This document shows positions 3,074 to 16,399 of a DNA stretch of 17,139 nucleotides, piece after piece; the first letter of the stretch is position 1; each line of letters opens with the position of its first letter. Source of the stretch: Chloroflexota bacterium (GTDB taxonomy: Bacteria; Chloroflexota; Ktedonobacteria; Ktedonobacterales; Ktedonobacteraceae). Location of the stretch: assembly GCA_005879655.1 (NCBI GenBank), contig VBJK01000455.1:4937-22075 (forward strand), written 5' to 3'. Both the position numbers and the translations under genes were made by a program. The notes beneath the pieces were generated by a model. That model ran no database searches. It had not been told where the DNA came from and saw nothing but the letters and a program-made list of their open reading frames with translations.

Positions 3074-3916
3074 ATGACAGTCCCCTTCGTGCTCACAGAT
3101 AAGTTGGACTTTGATGAGCATCATTTTCGTGTCTACGAGCCAAATGGCAGTCCAGAAGCAGATTGGCTGAGTCCTCTGGCTCAGGAGTACATAGAACTTC
3201 TCACTCATCGTGAAACTGCTCCTAGAAAAATAATCATCAATCAAAGCGATCTACAGATGGATGTATCTCGCATCCAAAAATACCTGAAGAAGGCATCTAT
3301 CCCAAAGTATAAAGCAGGAAATTTTAATGTTGTTCGTAGCGACTTCGGCGAGCTTCTCTGCTATATGATTCTTGAACGTGACTACGGCACGTCATTTGGA
3401 GCTAAAAGCATATGTCACCGTGAGCTGAGAGATAGCACAGGTCGTGGTATAGATGCGATTGGTATTGAACTCGATAATGAAGGGCTACTCACGCTTGTAC
3501 TTTGCGAAGTCAAGGTGTCTGATGAAAAAAAATCTCCTCCTCACGTTGTCGATGATAGTGAAGACAGCCTGGGTAAACAACACCGCCATCATCTGGATAA
3601 CTTAGATGAAGCTACAAAAGATAAAGTATGGCGTGCAATGAAATTTACGAAAGACCAAGACACTGCTGATCTTTTAACAAGAGCAGCAATCTGCCTTGAA
3701 GAGAAACAATTAGGTAAGCTCCGTATTATTATAAGTAGTGTCTTAATTCGTCCAAAAACAAAATATACACAAGCTGATTTTGGAAGTTTCCGAAAAAAAC
3801 CGAGCAAGTACGATCCTGCCACTATTCGGTTCCTGGTCGCTTGCATTCCCGCTGACACAGATGTTATCATTAATAAATGGTATGACGTTGTCGAAAAGAC
3901 GGAGGCACCTCTTTGA
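3074..3916 (+). CDS. hamA: HamA-like DUF1837 nuclease of a Hachiman anti-phage system
   Basis: 280 residues, a usual length for the family, from ATG 3074 with GAGG seven bases upstream. The central part has a PD-(D/E)xK-like nuclease layout: 'SDFGELLCYMILE' (89-101), 'STGRGIDAIGI' (121-131) with Asp127, and 'LVLCEVKVS' (141-149) with the E-x-K pair Glu145/Lys147. This matches DUF1837 of HamA/AbpA. In Hachiman, HamA is a DNase held inactive by the HamB helicase and released when DNA integrity is disturbed by phage, degrading DNA and aborting infection. The stop overlaps the next start by four bases (TTGA), so the two are translationally coupled. Base composition is more AT-rich than the flanking metabolic genes, suggesting transfer. 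The family call rests on motifs plus the adjacent helicase; AbpA is the close alternative. Confidence 0.82.
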   Translation: MTVPFVLTDKLDFDEHHFRVYEPNGSPEADWLSPLAQEYIELLTHRETAPRKIIINQSDLQMDVSRIQKYLKKASIPKYKAGNFNVVRSDFGELLCYMILERDYGTSFGAKSICHRELRDSTGRGIDAIGIELDNEGLLTLVLCEVKVSDEKKSPPHVVDDSEDSLGKQHRHHLDNLDEATKDKVWRAMKFTKDQDTADLLTRAAICLEEKQLGKLRIIISSVLIRPKTKYTQADFGSFRKKPSKYDPATIRFLVACIPADTDVIINKWYDVVEKTEAPL

Positions 3917-5781
3917 ATAACACCTTACTACAGACAACGTTAAAAGATCTGAACATCCCCTTTTTTATTCAGCAAGCAGATCATGCCACTCTTGCTCGCA
4001 TGATTGCTTCATCGCAAACAGACGATACCAATCAACACACTCCAGAGAAACTCCCAAGATACGGGTTCATTTATGAAAAACAAGGCATAAGAGTATTCAA
4101 GCAACTGATGGCCAAACAAAAAAATGTAAATAAAAATGATATGCTTGAACACTTCCAAAAAGCCTTCATCTGTTGGCGTGCTCTTGTCTCACTGCCAGAG
4201 GAGCCACACAAACCACTCAATGGTCATATTTCCACTACTGGCATCAGATTTGTTGAAAAAGAATTTCAAGATGAACTGCTCCCTGCCCATTTAACGCTTG
4301 CCTTTCGTCTCGGTGTATCGGGTCTCCTTGCAGAACTCACAGCAGAAGCACGTCTGGATTTAAAAAAATTTCAGTTCTCACCGCAAGAAAATCTTCAAGC
4401 CAATTGGCGTAGTATTGTTGTTGAATATATCTTTAGCGCATTTGTTCTTCTTGTCCGCAAAGATAAAGGCTGGGAAGATATTCATCAGGCGTTAACTAGT
4501 ATCAATAGATTAAGACAATTCCAGGATAATTATGAAGAGCACTATCTTGAAAGCATAGAAGAATCAGAAGAACAAACTTTAGCAGCACTTGAACTCATCG
4601 GCCTTTATCATCTTGCTCAGCTCATTACTCTTGTGGGTGAATATCTTCAAACAGGTGAGCCGGGCAACGATAAAGTAAATCTTCGTCTAGATCGTCATCA
4701 TGAACAGGCAACAGCTACTTTTGAAGAAACAAAGCAACCATTACTAGCACATCTGGCTGACCTTTTATGGGCCGGATGTAGAGAGCTGGTACAAAATGCT
4801 ATTTGGACACATGTAAGTCGTCTCGGTGAAAATGCCCAAAAATATGTGCAATTGCTTACCGCAAGCGCCCGTGAGCAACCTGTACTTGAACTTTGGCCGA
4901 GTCAACAAGAGGCATTTCGTCGTCATTTACTTGACTCTTATCAACGAGCTATCCTCGTGGAAATGCCAACTAGTGCTGGCAAAACTCTTCTTGCAAAATT
5001 TGCGGTCATCCAAACTAAAGCTCTCAATCCAAATAGTGTTATCGCCTATGTTGTTCCCACACGGGCCCTGGTTAATCAAGTAACTCTCGACTTCAGGATG
5101 GATTTTCGTCAGATTATGCAAGTAGAACAAACTATACCAGTTTTTGAGCTAGATCCTACAGAAGAACGGCTTCTCAAAAATAATGTTGATATCCTTGTTA
5201 CAACACCTGAAAAGCTTGATCTTCTTATTAGAAGTGAACATCCTGTCACAAAAAAAATTTCTTTGGTAGTTGCTGATGAAGCCCATAACATTGGTGAAGG
5301 GGATCGTGGTGCTCGCTTAGAGCTATTACTTGGCACTATTAAACGTGACCGACCAAGAGCACGTTTTTTGCTACTATCACCTTTTTTACCGAATGGTCAA
5401 GAGCTTGTGCAATGGCTTGGTGATGATCAAGCTCTACCACCCATTTCCATTGACTGGAAACCAAGTCGCAAATTGGTTGGTTCAGTCCAATCAACAAAAA
5501 GTCAAGGCCAATGGACATTAGAATTTGAGACCTTACCAACCGCTCACGTAATGGACATACGCCCATTTATGAAAATTAATGTTGGACAAATCTCTGCTCG
5601 AATTACTTCTATTGAAGCACTTACAGAGGCAACTGTTCAGGCTCTATCAAAGCGCGGGACGCTACTTATTCTTTGTCATGGCCCTGGAACATCGGTCACA
5701 CGAGCTAAACAAATCACCACAAATTGGAGACAGAACTTGGTAAGCATTGCGATATTGCACAATGTTTACGCCATGGAGTAG
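3913..5781 (+). CDS. hamB: HamB-like superfamily 2 helicase, N-terminal part (frameshifted)
   Basis: Starts at TTG 3913, overlapping the hamA stop, with GGAGG (3901-3905) seven bases before. Residues 1-325 are an alpha-helical N-terminal extension typical of HamB. RecA domain 1 follows: 'LWPSQQEAFRRHLL' (327-340, Q-motif-like), Walker A 'MPTSAGKT' (351-358), 'VPTRAL' (381-386), 'TTPEKLD' (430-436), DEAH (455-458) in 'VVADEAHNIGEGD', and 'LLLSPFLPN' (486-494). Domain 2 begins at 'GTLLILCHGPGTS' (582-594). The frame then loses homology and ends at TAG 5781. The rest of domain 2, with the motifs before and including V and VI, continues in another frame from about 5724. As written this product lacks the arginine-finger motif and could not hydrolyse ATP productively. 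It would be the sensor/helicase partner of HamA. Confidence 0.82.
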   Translation: MNNTLLQTTLKDLNIPFFIQQADHATLARMIASSQTDDTNQHTPEKLPRYGFIYEKQGIRVFKQLMAKQKNVNKNDMLEHFQKAFICWRALVSLPEEPHKPLNGHISTTGIRFVEKEFQDELLPAHLTLAFRLGVSGLLAELTAEARLDLKKFQFSPQENLQANWRSIVVEYIFSAFVLLVRKDKGWEDIHQALTSINRLRQFQDNYEEHYLESIEESEEQTLAALELIGLYHLAQLITLVGEYLQTGEPGNDKVNLRLDRHHEQATATFEETKQPLLAHLADLLWAGCRELVQNAIWTHVSRLGENAQKYVQLLTASAREQPVLELWPSQQEAFRRHLLDSYQRAILVEMPTSAGKTLLAKFAVIQTKALNPNSVIAYVVPTRALVNQVTLDFRMDFRQIMQVEQTIPVFELDPTEERLLKNNVDILVTTPEKLDLLIRSEHPVTKKISLVVADEAHNIGEGDRGARLELLLGTIKRDRPRARFLLLSPFLPNGQELVQWLGDDQALPPISIDWKPSRKLVGSVQSTKSQGQWTLEFETLPTAHVMDIRPFMKINVGQISARITSIEALTEATVQALSKRGTLLILCHGPGTSVTRAKQITTNWRQNLVSIAILHNVYAME

Positions 5782-7076
5782 CTTACCACCATGCTGGACT
5801 TTCCCAAGAAGCACGGTGGCTTATAGAAGGACTTATTCGAGACCGTCTAGTAAATGTCGTCTGTGGTACAACTACTCTTGCCCAAGGTATTAATTTTCCC
5901 ATCACAACAGTCATCATAGAAACGCTGCGCAAAGGGAAAACAGGAAGATTATCCTTCCAGGACTTTTGGAATATTGCAGGTAGAGCAGGGCGTACGCTTA
6001 TTGATGTTGTTGGAACTATTGTTTTTCCTACCCCAAGTAAAGCAAAGCGACAAGAATATATTGACTTTCTAAAAAATGATGCTAAGGAAGTAGCAAGTCA
6101 GCTCATGGAACTCATCGCGAATGCAGATGAAATTAGTAAGAAGTTTGATCTTGAAACCCTACGAGCCAATTCAAGGCTGTCTCCTCTTCTTCAATTTCTT
6201 GCCCATGCAATGCGTGTGTCTGGGAATGAAAATTTGGCTGATGAAGTTGAAGAGCTACTAAGGGCTAGTCTCGTCTATCACCAAGTTCAAAAACGAAGTC
6301 CAGATGCAGCGGGAAAGTTAATTAAAATCTGCCGCTCTTATTTAGAACATGCCCGCCAATACCAAAGCATTCTCGACCTTGCTGATCGCACGGGTTTTGC
6401 GACTCCAAGTGTTCTCGAACTTCTCTCTCGAAAGGAACATAACAACGAGATCACTCGCGCGATAAATTGGAGATCGAGCAGATTGTTCGGTAATAATATA
6501 AATCCATTGAGAAAGCGTATAGAAGCTATTGCAGATCTACCAGAAATAAGGCTTGGACAAGATGAAGGCTATTCTCCCAATGCTGAGAAGGTCGCACGTA
6601 TCTTACGTGACTGGGTGAATGGAAAGACCCTCGAAGAATTGGCTCAGAATTATGGAAACCAGGATCTTGAGCCAAGTAGACAAGTTGTAGATTTCTCCAA
6701 GTACCTATTCTCAATACTAAGCACCATATCATGGGGTATTGGAGCGTTAGAAACAGTATGCTTGGGTAATGAACAATCACATATTAGCGACATAAACTAT
6801 ATTCCATCTATGATATTCTTTGGAGTGCAAAGAAAAGAAGCTATTTGGCTACGTATGGCTGGTGTTCCCCGTATTGTGGCTAATGGTCTAGCTGACATTT
6901 GGAAACAGAGTATTGCCGATGAGCCAAAAAGCTATGACGGAATTCGTGAGTGGGTCGCCAACCTATCAGATAGTGACTGGCAAAAAGCTATTCCCAGTGG
7001 AACTACTTTAACGCCAAGCGATATGCGCTTGATCTGGCAGGACTTCATGGGAGAAAGGGATAAGGCAGGATATTAA
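5724..7076 (+). CDS. hamB: HamB-like helicase, C-terminal part in shifted frame
   Basis: 450 residues if counted from TTG 5724, but it has no ribosome-binding site and is best read as the remainder of the preceding gene after a frame change. It carries 'LRHGVAYHHAGLS' (15-27), motif V 'VCGTTTLAQGINFP' (46-59), motif VI 'IAGRAGRT' (84-91) and a long helical tail as in Ski2/Hel308-like HamB proteins. An in-frame stop at 5706-5708 and the upstream frame's stop at 5779-5781 confine the shift to 5709-5778. The join corresponds to loss of one base modulo three. The stretch between motif IV and 'GVAYHHAGL' is also shorter than I would expect, so a small deletion is possible. Joined length would be about 1,050 residues, suitable for HamB. 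Either a natural inactivation or a sequence error. Confidence 0.8.
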   Translation: METELGKHCDIAQCLRHGVAYHHAGLSQEARWLIEGLIRDRLVNVVCGTTTLAQGINFPITTVIIETLRKGKTGRLSFQDFWNIAGRAGRTLIDVVGTIVFPTPSKAKRQEYIDFLKNDAKEVASQLMELIANADEISKKFDLETLRANSRLSPLLQFLAHAMRVSGNENLADEVEELLRASLVYHQVQKRSPDAAGKLIKICRSYLEHARQYQSILDLADRTGFATPSVLELLSRKEHNNEITRAINWRSSRLFGNNINPLRKRIEAIADLPEIRLGQDEGYSPNAEKVARILRDWVNGKTLEELAQNYGNQDLEPSRQVVDFSKYLFSILSTISWGIGALETVCLGNEQSHISDINYIPSMIFFGVQRKEAIWLRMAGVPRIVANGLADIWKQSIADEPKSYDGIREWVANLSDSDWQKAIPSGTTLTPSDMRLIWQDFMGERDKAGY

Positions 7077-9088: not shown

Positions 9089-9102
9089 GAGGTCGGGTAT
9101 CC

Positions 9103-9147
9103 TTTCTTATTAAGAAATCACCTATACCACCTGAAAAATGGTATAAG
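9103..9147 (-). promoter_or_regulatory. Two hairpin-forming repeats between the ribozyme and the glmS start
   Basis: CCTATACCA (9121-9129) and TGGTATAAG (9139-9147) form a nine-pair stem, one G-U, in the glmS mRNA. Closer to the gene, TTTCTTA-T-TAAGAAA (9103-9117) is a near-perfect palindrome whose 3' arm on the mRNA runs into the AAAGGA ribosome-binding site. They could affect stability of the cleaved mRNA or access to the RBS, or be DNA operator sites. The symmetry is visible; the role is inference. Confidence 0.4.
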
Positions 9148-9149
9148 CT

Positions 9150-9310
9150 CTCTCCATCACTGATTGTCTTTTGTAGAGGTTGTCACCAACCGGCTTTGTA
9201 GACTCTCTTCGCAGGGATGTGATGAAACCCTGAAGGCTCCCCGCTGATGCTTCCGAACAGCCTTCACCTCGTCAACCGTGGCTTCCTCCTAATAGCCCGG
9301 CCCATGCGCT
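9150..9310 (-). ncRNA. glmS ribozyme: glmS self-cleaving ribozyme (glucosamine-6-phosphate riboswitch)
   Basis: In the glmS leader, read on the minus strand, the whole glmS ribozyme layout is present. The cleavage site is A|GCGC (A at 9310, G at 9309). A hairpin GGCT/AGCC (9297-9294 with 9283-9280) stacks on CCG/CGG. The invariant core GGTTGACGAGG lies at 9277-9267. Helix TGAAGGC/GCCTTCA (9266-9260 with 9237-9231) encloses 'CAGCGGGGA', which supplies the GCG partner for the CGC at the cleavage site. Then AGGG-loop-CCCT (9231-9228 with 9216-9213) has loop TTCATCACA exactly as in Bacillus, and its CATCAC (9224-9219) pairs with GTGATG (9160-9155) at the 3' end. GGTGAC and CTACAAAAG segments also match. 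In known examples glucosamine-6-phosphate is the cofactor for cleavage, after which the mRNA is degraded. About 60 bases separate it from the glmS ATG. Confidence 0.92.
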
Positions 9311-9337
9311 ACTAAACCAGACATTGTTCCTGACAAA

Positions 9338-9366
9338 AGTATAGCATTACCGTGAGGCACTTTGCC
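9338..9366 (-). promoter_or_regulatory. Candidate glmS promoter
   Basis: On the minus strand TATACT (9343-9338) is a good -10 box about 28 bases before the ribozyme cleavage site, placing the transcript start near 9330. The -35 at 17-base spacing is poor (GGCAAA, 9366-9361). It gives about 20 nt of RNA 5' to the cleavage site, a sensible arrangement for a glmS ribozyme. Confidence 0.5.
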
Positions 9367-9371
9367 ACGAA

Positions 9372-9540
9372 GTGCACGTCATTTTTTACATCAAGGAGAT
9401 GTAGCTGCGCAATTCATTGCGCCGTGCTCACAAAAAAACATCCGTAGCTGCACAATTCATTGCGCCTGTTTTCTTTATTTGTGGCCCTAGCGCAATGAAT
9501 TGCGCGGCTACGTCTCCCTGGTCCATAAAATGACGTGCAC
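9372..9540. repeat. 169-bp large palindromic element with internal GCGCAATTCATTGCGC repeats
   Basis: Two 51-base arms, 9372-9422 and 9490-9540, are inverted copies matching at 44 positions. They begin with a perfect 14-base end (GTGCACGTCATTTT) and finish with GTAGC(T/C)GCGCAATTCATTGCGC. A third, direct copy of that core lies between them at 9444-9465 (with GCAC for GCGC). Each core is itself nearly palindromic. The element starts six bases after the nadE stop and reaches the -35 region of glmS. It resembles a BIME/REP-type or MITE-type repeat and may also end nadE transcription. Confidence 0.75.
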
Positions 9541-14896: not shown

Positions 14897-16399
14897 GTGA
14901 CCAGTTTTCCCATCGATCTGCCTACGCGTCAGCAAAGCCTGCGCCAGACACTCGATTGGAGCTACAACTTACTCGAACTAGGAGAGCAGCGCATTTTTCG
15001 CCGCCTCGGCGTATTCGTTGGTGGCTGTTCGCTAGAGGCGGTAGAAGCGCTAGCTAACTTACCAGATGATTTGCCCCTAGATGTGATCAGCCACGTCGCA
15101 GCGCTGATTGATAAAAGCCTGCTCAATCAGGAAGAACAAGCAGATGGGAATCCACGCGTGAGCATGTTGGAGACAACACGAGAATATGCATTGGAGCAGT
15201 TACATGCCAATGGTGAGCAGGCGACGCTACGTTGCGCATATGCCAGATACTATTTGAGGTTGGCCCAAACTGCCGAGGGCTTTCTGCTTGGCCGGGAGCA
15301 GCGTGTGTGGCTCGATCGCCTCGATCAGGAACGGAACAACCTGCGTGCGGCACTACGTTGGGCGGCTGAAAGCAACGATGAGGCAGCTATTGAAATTGGC
15401 TTGCAGCTGGGCAGCGCGTTATGGCAGTTTTGGGCTTATCGGGGGTATCTGGAGGAGGGGCGCGATCAGTTGGCGAGATTGTTGTCCCTGCCCGGCACGC
15501 TGCACTCACAGCTCCAGGCGGCGCGCGCCAAAGCACTGACCGGTGCCGGGCTACTCGCTATCCGCTACTCGGATTATGCAGAGGCAGGCAGGCTACTTGA
15601 AGCAGGCTTGCAGCTCTGGCGTGAACAAGGAAACGATGGCCAACAGGGAACAGCACTCGCTCTGGATGGCTTGGGTTGGGTCGCCAGCGCTTTTGGTGAT
15701 TTTGCGCGTGCACGAGAACTCTACCAAGCCAGCCTCCAACTCCACCGTGAACTGCATACGCAAGGCAACTCTGAGGCTGCTGATGTGCTTGCCCATCTCG
15801 CAATGGCAGACTTCTTTGACGGGGGTCTGGTCAGTGCACAAGCACTCAGTGAAGAAAGTCTGCGCATCAAACGCATCCTCGGTGAAAAATGGGGCATCGG
15901 CTTTGCCCTGTATCTTCTGGGGTGTATCGCTCTTGCGGACAGCCGTTACGATGAAGCACGGACCTACCTTCATGAAGGTCTTACCCTCTCCAACGAAGCA
16001 GGCATACAGCTTTTGCGAATTTTCCTGCTGGAAGCGCTTGCCTGGTTAGCAATAGCACCGACCAAGAGGCGAAACCCTCCGCTGGCAGCTCAGGCACTTA
16101 GCACGGCGCATAGCCTGCGGTCAATGTTAAGAGTGCCTCAACCACCACAATGGCGTACACTTATGCAACGAGTTACTGGCGAAGTTCAGGCAAAAGTAGT
16201 GACGCGTAAGACCTTGCGTGGCACTCACAAGGGCGATCTGATGGGTATTGCTCCTACGGGAAAGACCGTCGATATTGAGATGATTGATATTCTGGCGGTC
16301 AAAGATGGCAAAATCACCGACCACTGGAACCTTGTAGATCAATTAGGTCTGCTGAAACAGCTAGGCGCTCTATCTGGTGGGGAGACCGCACATGCATGA
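14897..16399 (+). CDS. Chimeric remnant: truncated AfsR/LuxR-type regulator (WHD-TPR) fused to C-terminal part of a SnoaL-like cyclase
   Basis: 500 residues from GTG 14897, which is 29 bp after the previous gene. The protein begins inside what is normally mid-protein: 'LPTRQQSLRQTLDWSYNLL' (8-26) follows the NB-ARC ATPase in complete regulators, then 'VFVGGCSLEAVEAL' (39-52) is its winged-helix region. TPR-like repeats cover about 140-415. The N-terminal ATPase and any DNA-binding domain are absent, so it cannot be a normal regulator. From about residue 427 it switches to the end of a SnoaL-like ester cyclase: 'VVTRKTLRGTHKG' (434-446), 'GIAPTGKTVDIEMIDILAVK' (450-469), 'GKITDHWNLVDQLGLLKQLG' (471-490), missing the first half of that fold. 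The frame stays open across the junction. The ORF is real, but its product is probably non-functional. Confidence 0.75.
   Translation: MTSFPIDLPTRQQSLRQTLDWSYNLLELGEQRIFRRLGVFVGGCSLEAVEALANLPDDLPLDVISHVAALIDKSLLNQEEQADGNPRVSMLETTREYALEQLHANGEQATLRCAYARYYLRLAQTAEGFLLGREQRVWLDRLDQERNNLRAALRWAAESNDEAAIEIGLQLGSALWQFWAYRGYLEEGRDQLARLLSLPGTLHSQLQAARAKALTGAGLLAIRYSDYAEAGRLLEAGLQLWREQGNDGQQGTALALDGLGWVASAFGDFARARELYQASLQLHRELHTQGNSEAADVLAHLAMADFFDGGLVSAQALSEESLRIKRILGEKWGIGFALYLLGCIALADSRYDEARTYLHEGLTLSNEAGIQLLRIFLLEALAWLAIAPTKRRNPPLAAQALSTAHSLRSMLRVPQPPQWRTLMQRVTGEVQAKVVTRKTLRGTHKGDLMGIAPTGKTVDIEMIDILAVKDGKITDHWNLVDQLGLLKQLGALSGGETAHA

Follow-up and report, generated by a model that had tools for sequence, protein, structure and literature searches.

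The glmS ribozyme is best known from Bacillota, and a leader resembling it, found upstream of glmS in a Chloroflexota contig, raises the question of whether a working member of the family stands there, how widely it is shared among related bacteria and how it was acquired. Here, the window (the whole stretch of 17,139 nt that was analysed) was compared on both strands with all 4227 Rfam families by cmscan, at the gathering thresholds. A single family, RF00234 (glmS), reached its curated cut-off anywhere in the window, on the minus strand at 9321-9152, with 50.4 bits (cut-off 37, E 2.7e-9) and a match that runs over the entire model (positions 1-167 of 167); no further Rfam match appeared in the whole window even with the threshold relaxed to E 1. 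This score bears out the identity given in the original prediction, and the motifs listed there are present as well: A/GCGC (the stroke marks the predicted cleavage site, between A 9310 and G 9309), GGTTGACGAGG and TTCATCACA, with CATCAC facing GTGATG. The span first proposed, 9150-9310, had the place right but the Rfam element is slightly longer, and the description of the ribozyme as complete holds for the coverage of the Rfam model but not for every helix, as P4 and P4.1 contain mismatches and P2.2 an A.A step. The minimum free energy of the element is not separated from that of shuffled sequences (z -0.29; 70 of 200 shuffles at least as stable, with a predictor that does not handle pseudoknots). 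What supports the element is its covariance-model score, together with its gene context and covariation, and not its folding energy.

That the element lies in the leader of a bona fide glmS gene, as had been claimed, is confirmed by the TIGR01135 score of the encoded protein (Table 1); its ATG begins 64 nt downstream of the ribozyme end, on the same strand. The gene upstream of the leader (11378-9546, minus strand) encodes NAD+ synthase. Between that gene and the likely glmS promoter sits an inverted-repeat element (9372-9540), with 67-nt arms that are 81% complementary and with inner GCGCAATKMATTGCGC palindromes; a 13-mer from its inner part was absent from all 289 loci compared.

Occurrence in Ktedonobacteria and descent of glmS

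The class to which a Ktedonobacterales metagenome-assembled genome (MAG; L001) belongs, taken as Ktedonobacteria, was sampled with 47 genomes. A comparison with the glmS leaders of other Ktedonobacteria, which had been proposed as a check, found the ribozyme above the RF00234 cut-off in 40 of the 47; the MAG itself has it (75.7 bits), and in all 40 class copies a GlmS match from the first residue begins at most 269 nt from the ribozyme (identity about 55-81%, a few matches being cut by a contig end). Two of the copies are longer than the others (L087, 209 nt; L216, 206 nt). The score of the window copy is below that of 37 of the 40, within a class range of 41.6-89.3 bits. In the seven genomes without the ribozyme (G008, G016, G019, G030, G045, G046 and G047; assembly completeness not given) no GlmS orthologue was found; they gave paralogue-level hits only, with best E values from 9.9e-38 to 3.7e-10, and for want of an orthologue they are not counter-examples. 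Since every sampled genome of the class in which glmS was found also has the ribozyme (40 of 40), feedback by glucosamine-6-phosphate (GlcN6P) through a self-cleaving RNA is likely to be stably maintained across an entire class that lies outside Bacillota, and the isolated extension of range that the original prediction had envisaged gives way to this wider occurrence before glmS. Of the 40 class copies, 19 share a promoter-like element, the pattern TGnTA[TC]ACT at most 80 nt upstream of the cleavage site, where mononucleotide shuffles would lead one to expect 0.14. This pattern came from the comparison of copies; a generic sigma-70 consensus scan listed no promoter before glmS.

In a sample of 400 genomes of the phylum, 125 match RF00234 at E 0.001 or better (40 of the class and 85 others) and 111 are above the cut-off. 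Among the 275 without a match, 20 were examined, and 16 of these have a near-full-length GlmS-like gene; when 14 of the 16 loci were rescanned with laxer settings, 13 gave no match and one (L261) gave 34.7 bits, which is below the cut-off. Beyond the class the trait is patchy, with real absences. The window and 130 places in the phylum make up 131 instances, 125 of which have a GlmS-like match in the downstream DNA examined; the other six are L191, at a contig end, L203, and four copies that precede glnA (see below). At L203 (also L240; G057:C334:30271-30512) an AGCGC ribozyme of 46.1 bits stands before a DegT-type sugar aminotransferase gene and not before glmS; the best model for the protein is PseC (259.6 bits, under the cut-off of 423.5), a putative murF frame was seen by eye further downstream, and the best GlmS match of that genome, of 36% identity, is on another contig. 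In four further Chloroflexota copies (L233-L235 and L237) the start of the Rfam match lies within the RNA, and by eye the ACGAGG core is further upstream.

The literature found by pairing "glmS ribozyme" with "Chloroflexi" (PMC3766115, PMC2258182) mentions no Chloroflexi glmS ribozyme in the text covered, which lies outside the taxon tables of PMC3766115 and the McCown 2011 census and is thus not proof of novelty. The element is a known RNA family in a little-advertised host range; it widens the natural sequence set of a much-studied RNA catalyst, and its core haplotype can be compared with the mutational maps of Bacillus and consensus ribozymes.

The Chloroflexota host that had been proposed is supported by the GlmS protein, which falls inside a Ktedonobacteria clade of 33 rows including the window (local support 99; nearest row 81% identical), the class being anchored by the Ktedonobacterales MAG, whose GlmS is also the best hit among the 80 loci listed from a scan of named genomes (61% in the best segment). 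The tree was built with FastTree from 182 proteins and carries local support values, not bootstraps; it has long branches, and 43 of its 179 inner branches are open. The original prediction had also raised the possibility of transfer, and a recent joint arrival of glmS and ribozyme from Firmicutes could draw on the prominence of the ribozyme in Bacillota and on the next-best GlmS hits among the matches listed, which include ribozyme-bearing Bacillota (L002-L004, 50-51% identity). The tree, however, keeps the Ktedonobacteria in one clade and places all ribozyme-bearing Bacillota rows in another (24 rows, support 100), and the ribozyme is present throughout most of the class sample; we consider such a transfer into the lineage of the window extremely improbable. 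A third clade holds 51 of the 58 other ribozyme-bearing Chloroflexota rows; one of the remainder (C_G161_L232), on a long branch, adjoins the Ktedonobacteria, and six are on a long branch at the root as drawn. To explain where on the tree the ribozyme is present takes at least 12 changes, and its deep history may have been one old gain followed by many losses, or several gains.

Helices and their covariation

The helices were placed by hand on the window sequence (Table 1), under the names used in the available text of PMC11602151. They were then followed through an alignment that comprised, beside the window, 38 class copies, two of the 40 (L087 and L216) being left out for their inserts; merging identical sequences left 38 distinct rows. 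Around the cleavage site, T11 to A17 of the alignment show no change in the 39 aligned sequences; A/GCGC is invariant, and so is GACGAGG except for one base in one row.

Table 1. Coordinates of the features discussed (window positions, or loci of other genomes in the last line)
Feature	Position	Strand	Details
glmS ribozyme, full RF00234 model	9152..9321	-	covariance-model score; 170 nt
Predicted cleavage site, A 9310 (A-1) / G 9309 (G1)	9309..9310	-	A/GCGC motif
glmS, glutamine--fructose-6-phosphate transaminase (isomerizing), 623 aa	7217..9088	-	TIGR01135 794.5 bits, cut-off 418.05
Likely glmS ribosome-binding site, AAAGGA	9100..9105	-	11 nt before ATG
Putative promoter, extended -10-like TGCTATACT	9338..9346	-	28 nt before cleavage site
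P1 hairpin, 9302-9295 with 9282-9274, bulged A 9279	9274..9302	-	8/8 pairs standard
P2, 9264-9259 with 9238-9233	9233..9264	-	6/6 pairs standard
P2.1 pseudoknot, 9271-9269 with 9256-9254	9254..9271	-	3/3 pairs
P2.2 pseudoknot, 9308-9306 with 9244-9242 and 9303 with 9246; A.A at 9305/9245	9242..9308	-	4/4 tested pairs standard
P3, 9232-9228 with 9216-9212	9212..9232	-	5/5 pairs; 92.6% paired in class alignment
P3.1 long-range pseudoknot, CATCAC 9224-9219 with GTGATG 9160-9155	9155..9224	-	6/6 pairs
P4, 9207-9201 with 9168-9162	9162..9207	-	5/7 pairs; mismatches G.A and A.A
P4.1, inner 5 bp 9191-9187 with 9182-9178; GTGA (GNRA) loop 9186-9183	9178..9191	-	5/7 pairs
glnA-linked RNAs	L195, L197, L214, L225, L226:395-602, L282:1490-, L288:1490-		pattern search and Rfam

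Over the 38 distinct rows, 91.0% of cells are paired, as against 79.7 +/- 0.5% in shuffles, and pairing falls to 33-44% when the partners are slid by 1-3 columns. Changes on both sides were seen in 30 of the 46 pairs (21.7 in shuffles), with 208 double-changed cells (66.5 in shuffles), in line with the earlier remark that the helices differ in sequence while pairing is kept. These controls lean towards structure, since the aligned sequences are relatives of one another and one of them served to draw up the helices; it is the size of the gap that counts. By helix, P1 is 88.5% paired, with double changes in five of its eight pairs; P2 is 95.6% paired, with double changes in five of six; P2.1 is paired in every row, with one double change (A-U to C-G); and P4 and P4.1 are 91.0% and 89.8% paired, the mismatches of P4.1 in the window being in its two outer pairs (C.C and C.U). 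The pairs of P2.2 never vary in the alignment, and this helix thus gives no covariation evidence either way. The long-range pairing of CATCAC with GTGATG (P3.1), which had been recognised from the start and is intact in the window, also holds in the class: five of its six pairs are 94.7% paired, and four of these five are double-changed, one pair being U-A in 21 rows and C-G in 13. One of the five has gaps in 20 of the 38 rows, and the outermost, sixth pair falls on misaligned columns, where it pairs in 1 of 37.

Where at least 85% of the other aligned class copies agree, the window departs by two substitutions, and these face each other in a single P2 pair (9264/9233), A-U where the class usually has G-C; it also has two one-base inserts around the P1 loop. 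By eye, GGAGG was noted within the P1 loop of the window (9290-9283) and of many Ktedonobacteria copies.

Proposed function and competing readings

The element is an ordinary RF00234 member for its class and very probably works as named. Our main reading, to which we give a probability of roughly 93%, is that it is a functional self-cleaving ribozyme, activated by GlcN6P, through which glmS is under feedback. Transcription would start just upstream, probably from the TGCTATACT element, and the leader would fold into the double pseudoknot of P2, P2.1 and P2.2, braced by P3 and P3.1 and, as expected for the family, by the GNRA loop of P4.1 docked on P1. When the GlmS product GlcN6P is abundant, it would occupy a preformed pocket and, as cofactor, help to cleave the RNA between 9310 and 9309, and the downstream message, left with a 5'-OH end, would be destroyed, probably by RNase J, so that less GlmS is made. 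For the family, the available text of two papers describes binding of GlcN6P in a preformed pocket, where it contributes to the acid-base catalysis by which the RNA is cut, and degradation of the cleaved product by RNase J1 (PMC7125110, PMC11602151). In the present case the reading is based on the sequence, on structure by covariation, on gene context, on conservation in the class and on the RNase J family genes of the class, and the promoter, ligand, tertiary docking, cleavage and mRNA decay would be as the family suggests. Genes of the RNase J family (TIGR00649) exceed the cut-off in 46 of the 47 class genomes, a count that adds weak support because 9 of 14 control genomes exceed it too.

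Compared with the RF00234 types of Bacillus subtilis, B. anthracis and Thermoanaerobacter tengcongensis, the window copy is alike in its position in a glmS leader, in A/GCGC and the GACGAGG core, in the P2/P2.1/P2.2 and P3/P3.1 arrangement and in the GNRA-looped P4 arm. Mapped onto the B. subtilis sequence, the general-base G of GACGAGG, the UCG of the second P2.1 strand and the G after GCG are presumably all in place. It differs from the Bacillus and Thermoanaerobacter types in the segment GUUCGGA...GCGGGGAG on the side of the cofactor pocket and in its weaker P4 and P4.1; the GGAGG loop of P1 in many class copies, seen by eye, is a further difference. At position 5-53 of P2.2 it has A.A, whereas the Bacillus-type consensus has C-G. 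Within Chloroflexota this position takes two coupled forms, AGCGCC with UCGGCGG and AGCGCA with UCAGCGG: UCAG was found in no readable AGCGCC copy and UCGG in four AGCGCA copies (three of the 90 other Chloroflexota copies were unreadable by the pattern), and the A.A form is that of the window and of all 40 class copies. Variants of the glmS ribozyme with extra core stems were reportedly described by McCown in 2011 from Deinococcus-Thermus. They share family and gene with the window copy, which at 170 nt has no extra-stem insert, and they are resembled by the other Chloroflexota copies of about 200-240 nt. In such longer copies (for instance L191, L195 and L203), two extra hairpins seem, by eye, to lie between P2 and the UCGA segment.

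The mismatches in P4 and P4.1 and the low rank of the window among the class scores would also suit a degenerate ribozyme, still recognisable by descent, that has lost cleavage and has left glmS to some other control. The class-conserved core is intact, however, and the only two substitutions atypical for conserved class positions compensate each other within P2; moreover, in the P4 domain of B. subtilis 46 of 52 sites tolerated single substitutions, according to the available text of PMC11602151. We regard loss of function as very unlikely. The pocket-side positions (UGUUCGGA...GCGGGGAG) call for more comment, since their departure from the Rfam consensus means that the kinetics or the affinity for the cofactor may differ, and one could go further and suppose that the same fold responds mainly to another amino sugar, or with a much altered affinity. 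The window has the whole haplotype GUUCGGA...GCGGGGAG, as do 31 of the 40 class copies; it was found in none of the 90 other Chloroflexota copies, nor, as an exact pattern, in any of 299 genomes of the phylum Bacillota (the ribozyme carriers among the 299 being uncounted), and residues of the second P2.1 strand are part of the cofactor pocket in the available text of PMC7125110. Against a change of ligand, no aligned class copy has lost a P2.1 pair, the controlled gene is still glmS in 40 of 40, and neighbouring positions vary in the other Chloroflexota copies too; for this last reason we take the haplotype as a mark of the lineage and no proof of a new ligand, and have played down the idea of a rebuilt pocket. 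A switch to another ligand or a much altered affinity seems to us hardly credible beside the GlcN6P-activated ribozyme.

Relatives before glnA and other features of the window

RNAs resembling the glmS ribozyme were also found before the glutamine synthetase gene (glnA) in seven Chloroflexota genomes (Table 1). A pattern search over 396 genomes of one Chloroflexota class returned eight genomes, and the reversed pattern none; the eighth (L289), with no glutamine synthetase behind the match, was set aside as a chance match. In all seven others glutamine synthetase follows the RNA, 66-100% identical to the one behind L214, and the two of these proteins that were run against NCBIfam are GlnA (TIGR00653, 533.7 and 518.6 bits; cut-off 429.15). 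Three of the seven RNAs, at 47.7, 46.6 and 42.9 bits, score above the Rfam cut-off of 37, while two fall just under it at 35.0 and 34.9 bits and L282 further below at 23.7 bits; for L288 no RF00234 match was reported, and its membership thus rests on the pattern and on alignment by eye. The first of the two L226 copies is counted among the 125 GlmS-linked instances given above only because glmS lies 2 kb further on.

These RNAs share with the glmS ribozyme the core segments GACGAGG, AUCGA and UCAGCGG, together with the extra hairpins of the Chloroflexota type. They differ from the window copy, which has AGCGC and precedes glmS, in the gene they precede and in position 4 of the cleavage-site helix, which is G in six (AGCGG) and A in one (AGCGA); the glmS-linked copy of the same genome, seen in five of the seven, has AGCGC. 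In the consensus core, C4G is highly detrimental, according to the available text of PMC7125110. Taken together with the class data, these relatives could be read as signs of a second centre of diversification in Chloroflexota, in which the Ktedonobacteria form would be a distinct subclass, marked by the A.A step in P2.2 and the changed pocket side, and a sister lineage would have taken glutamine synthetase as its new target, where it could serve as a switch, cleaving slowly or not at all, that responds to GlcN6P or to something else. We offer this joint reading tentatively and think it possible but rather unlikely. The relatives themselves point to a move of this RNA scaffold to the gene that makes glutamine, a substrate of GlmS. 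The titles and opening abstracts of the literature found describe no glnA-linked form; the McCown censuses are outside that scope, and this is not proof of novelty. In two of the seven genomes a 6S RNA match precedes the glnA-linked RNA: these RF00013 matches (L288:1297-1472 with 66 bits and L241:2598-2773 with 47.1 bits; cut-off 46.4) stop some 30-40 nt short of its AGCG, the order being 6S RNA, ribozyme-like RNA and glnA.

Elsewhere in the window, a Hachiman-like pair lies at 3074-7076 on the plus strand. Its first protein matches HamA weakly (25.0 bits in Pfam, where the cut-off is 25; about 31 bits for PADLOC PDC-M23A), and the second has a strong PDC-M23B/HamB helicase match that is split over the overlapping frames 3913-5781 and 5724-7076. 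Repeats at 1757-2225, open in several frames, code for a Thr-Pro-rich protein of TTVPP units, with an N-terminus that is Tat-like by eye, and a frame at 14897-16399 (plus strand) combines TPR repeats with the C-terminal portion of a SnoaL-like domain.
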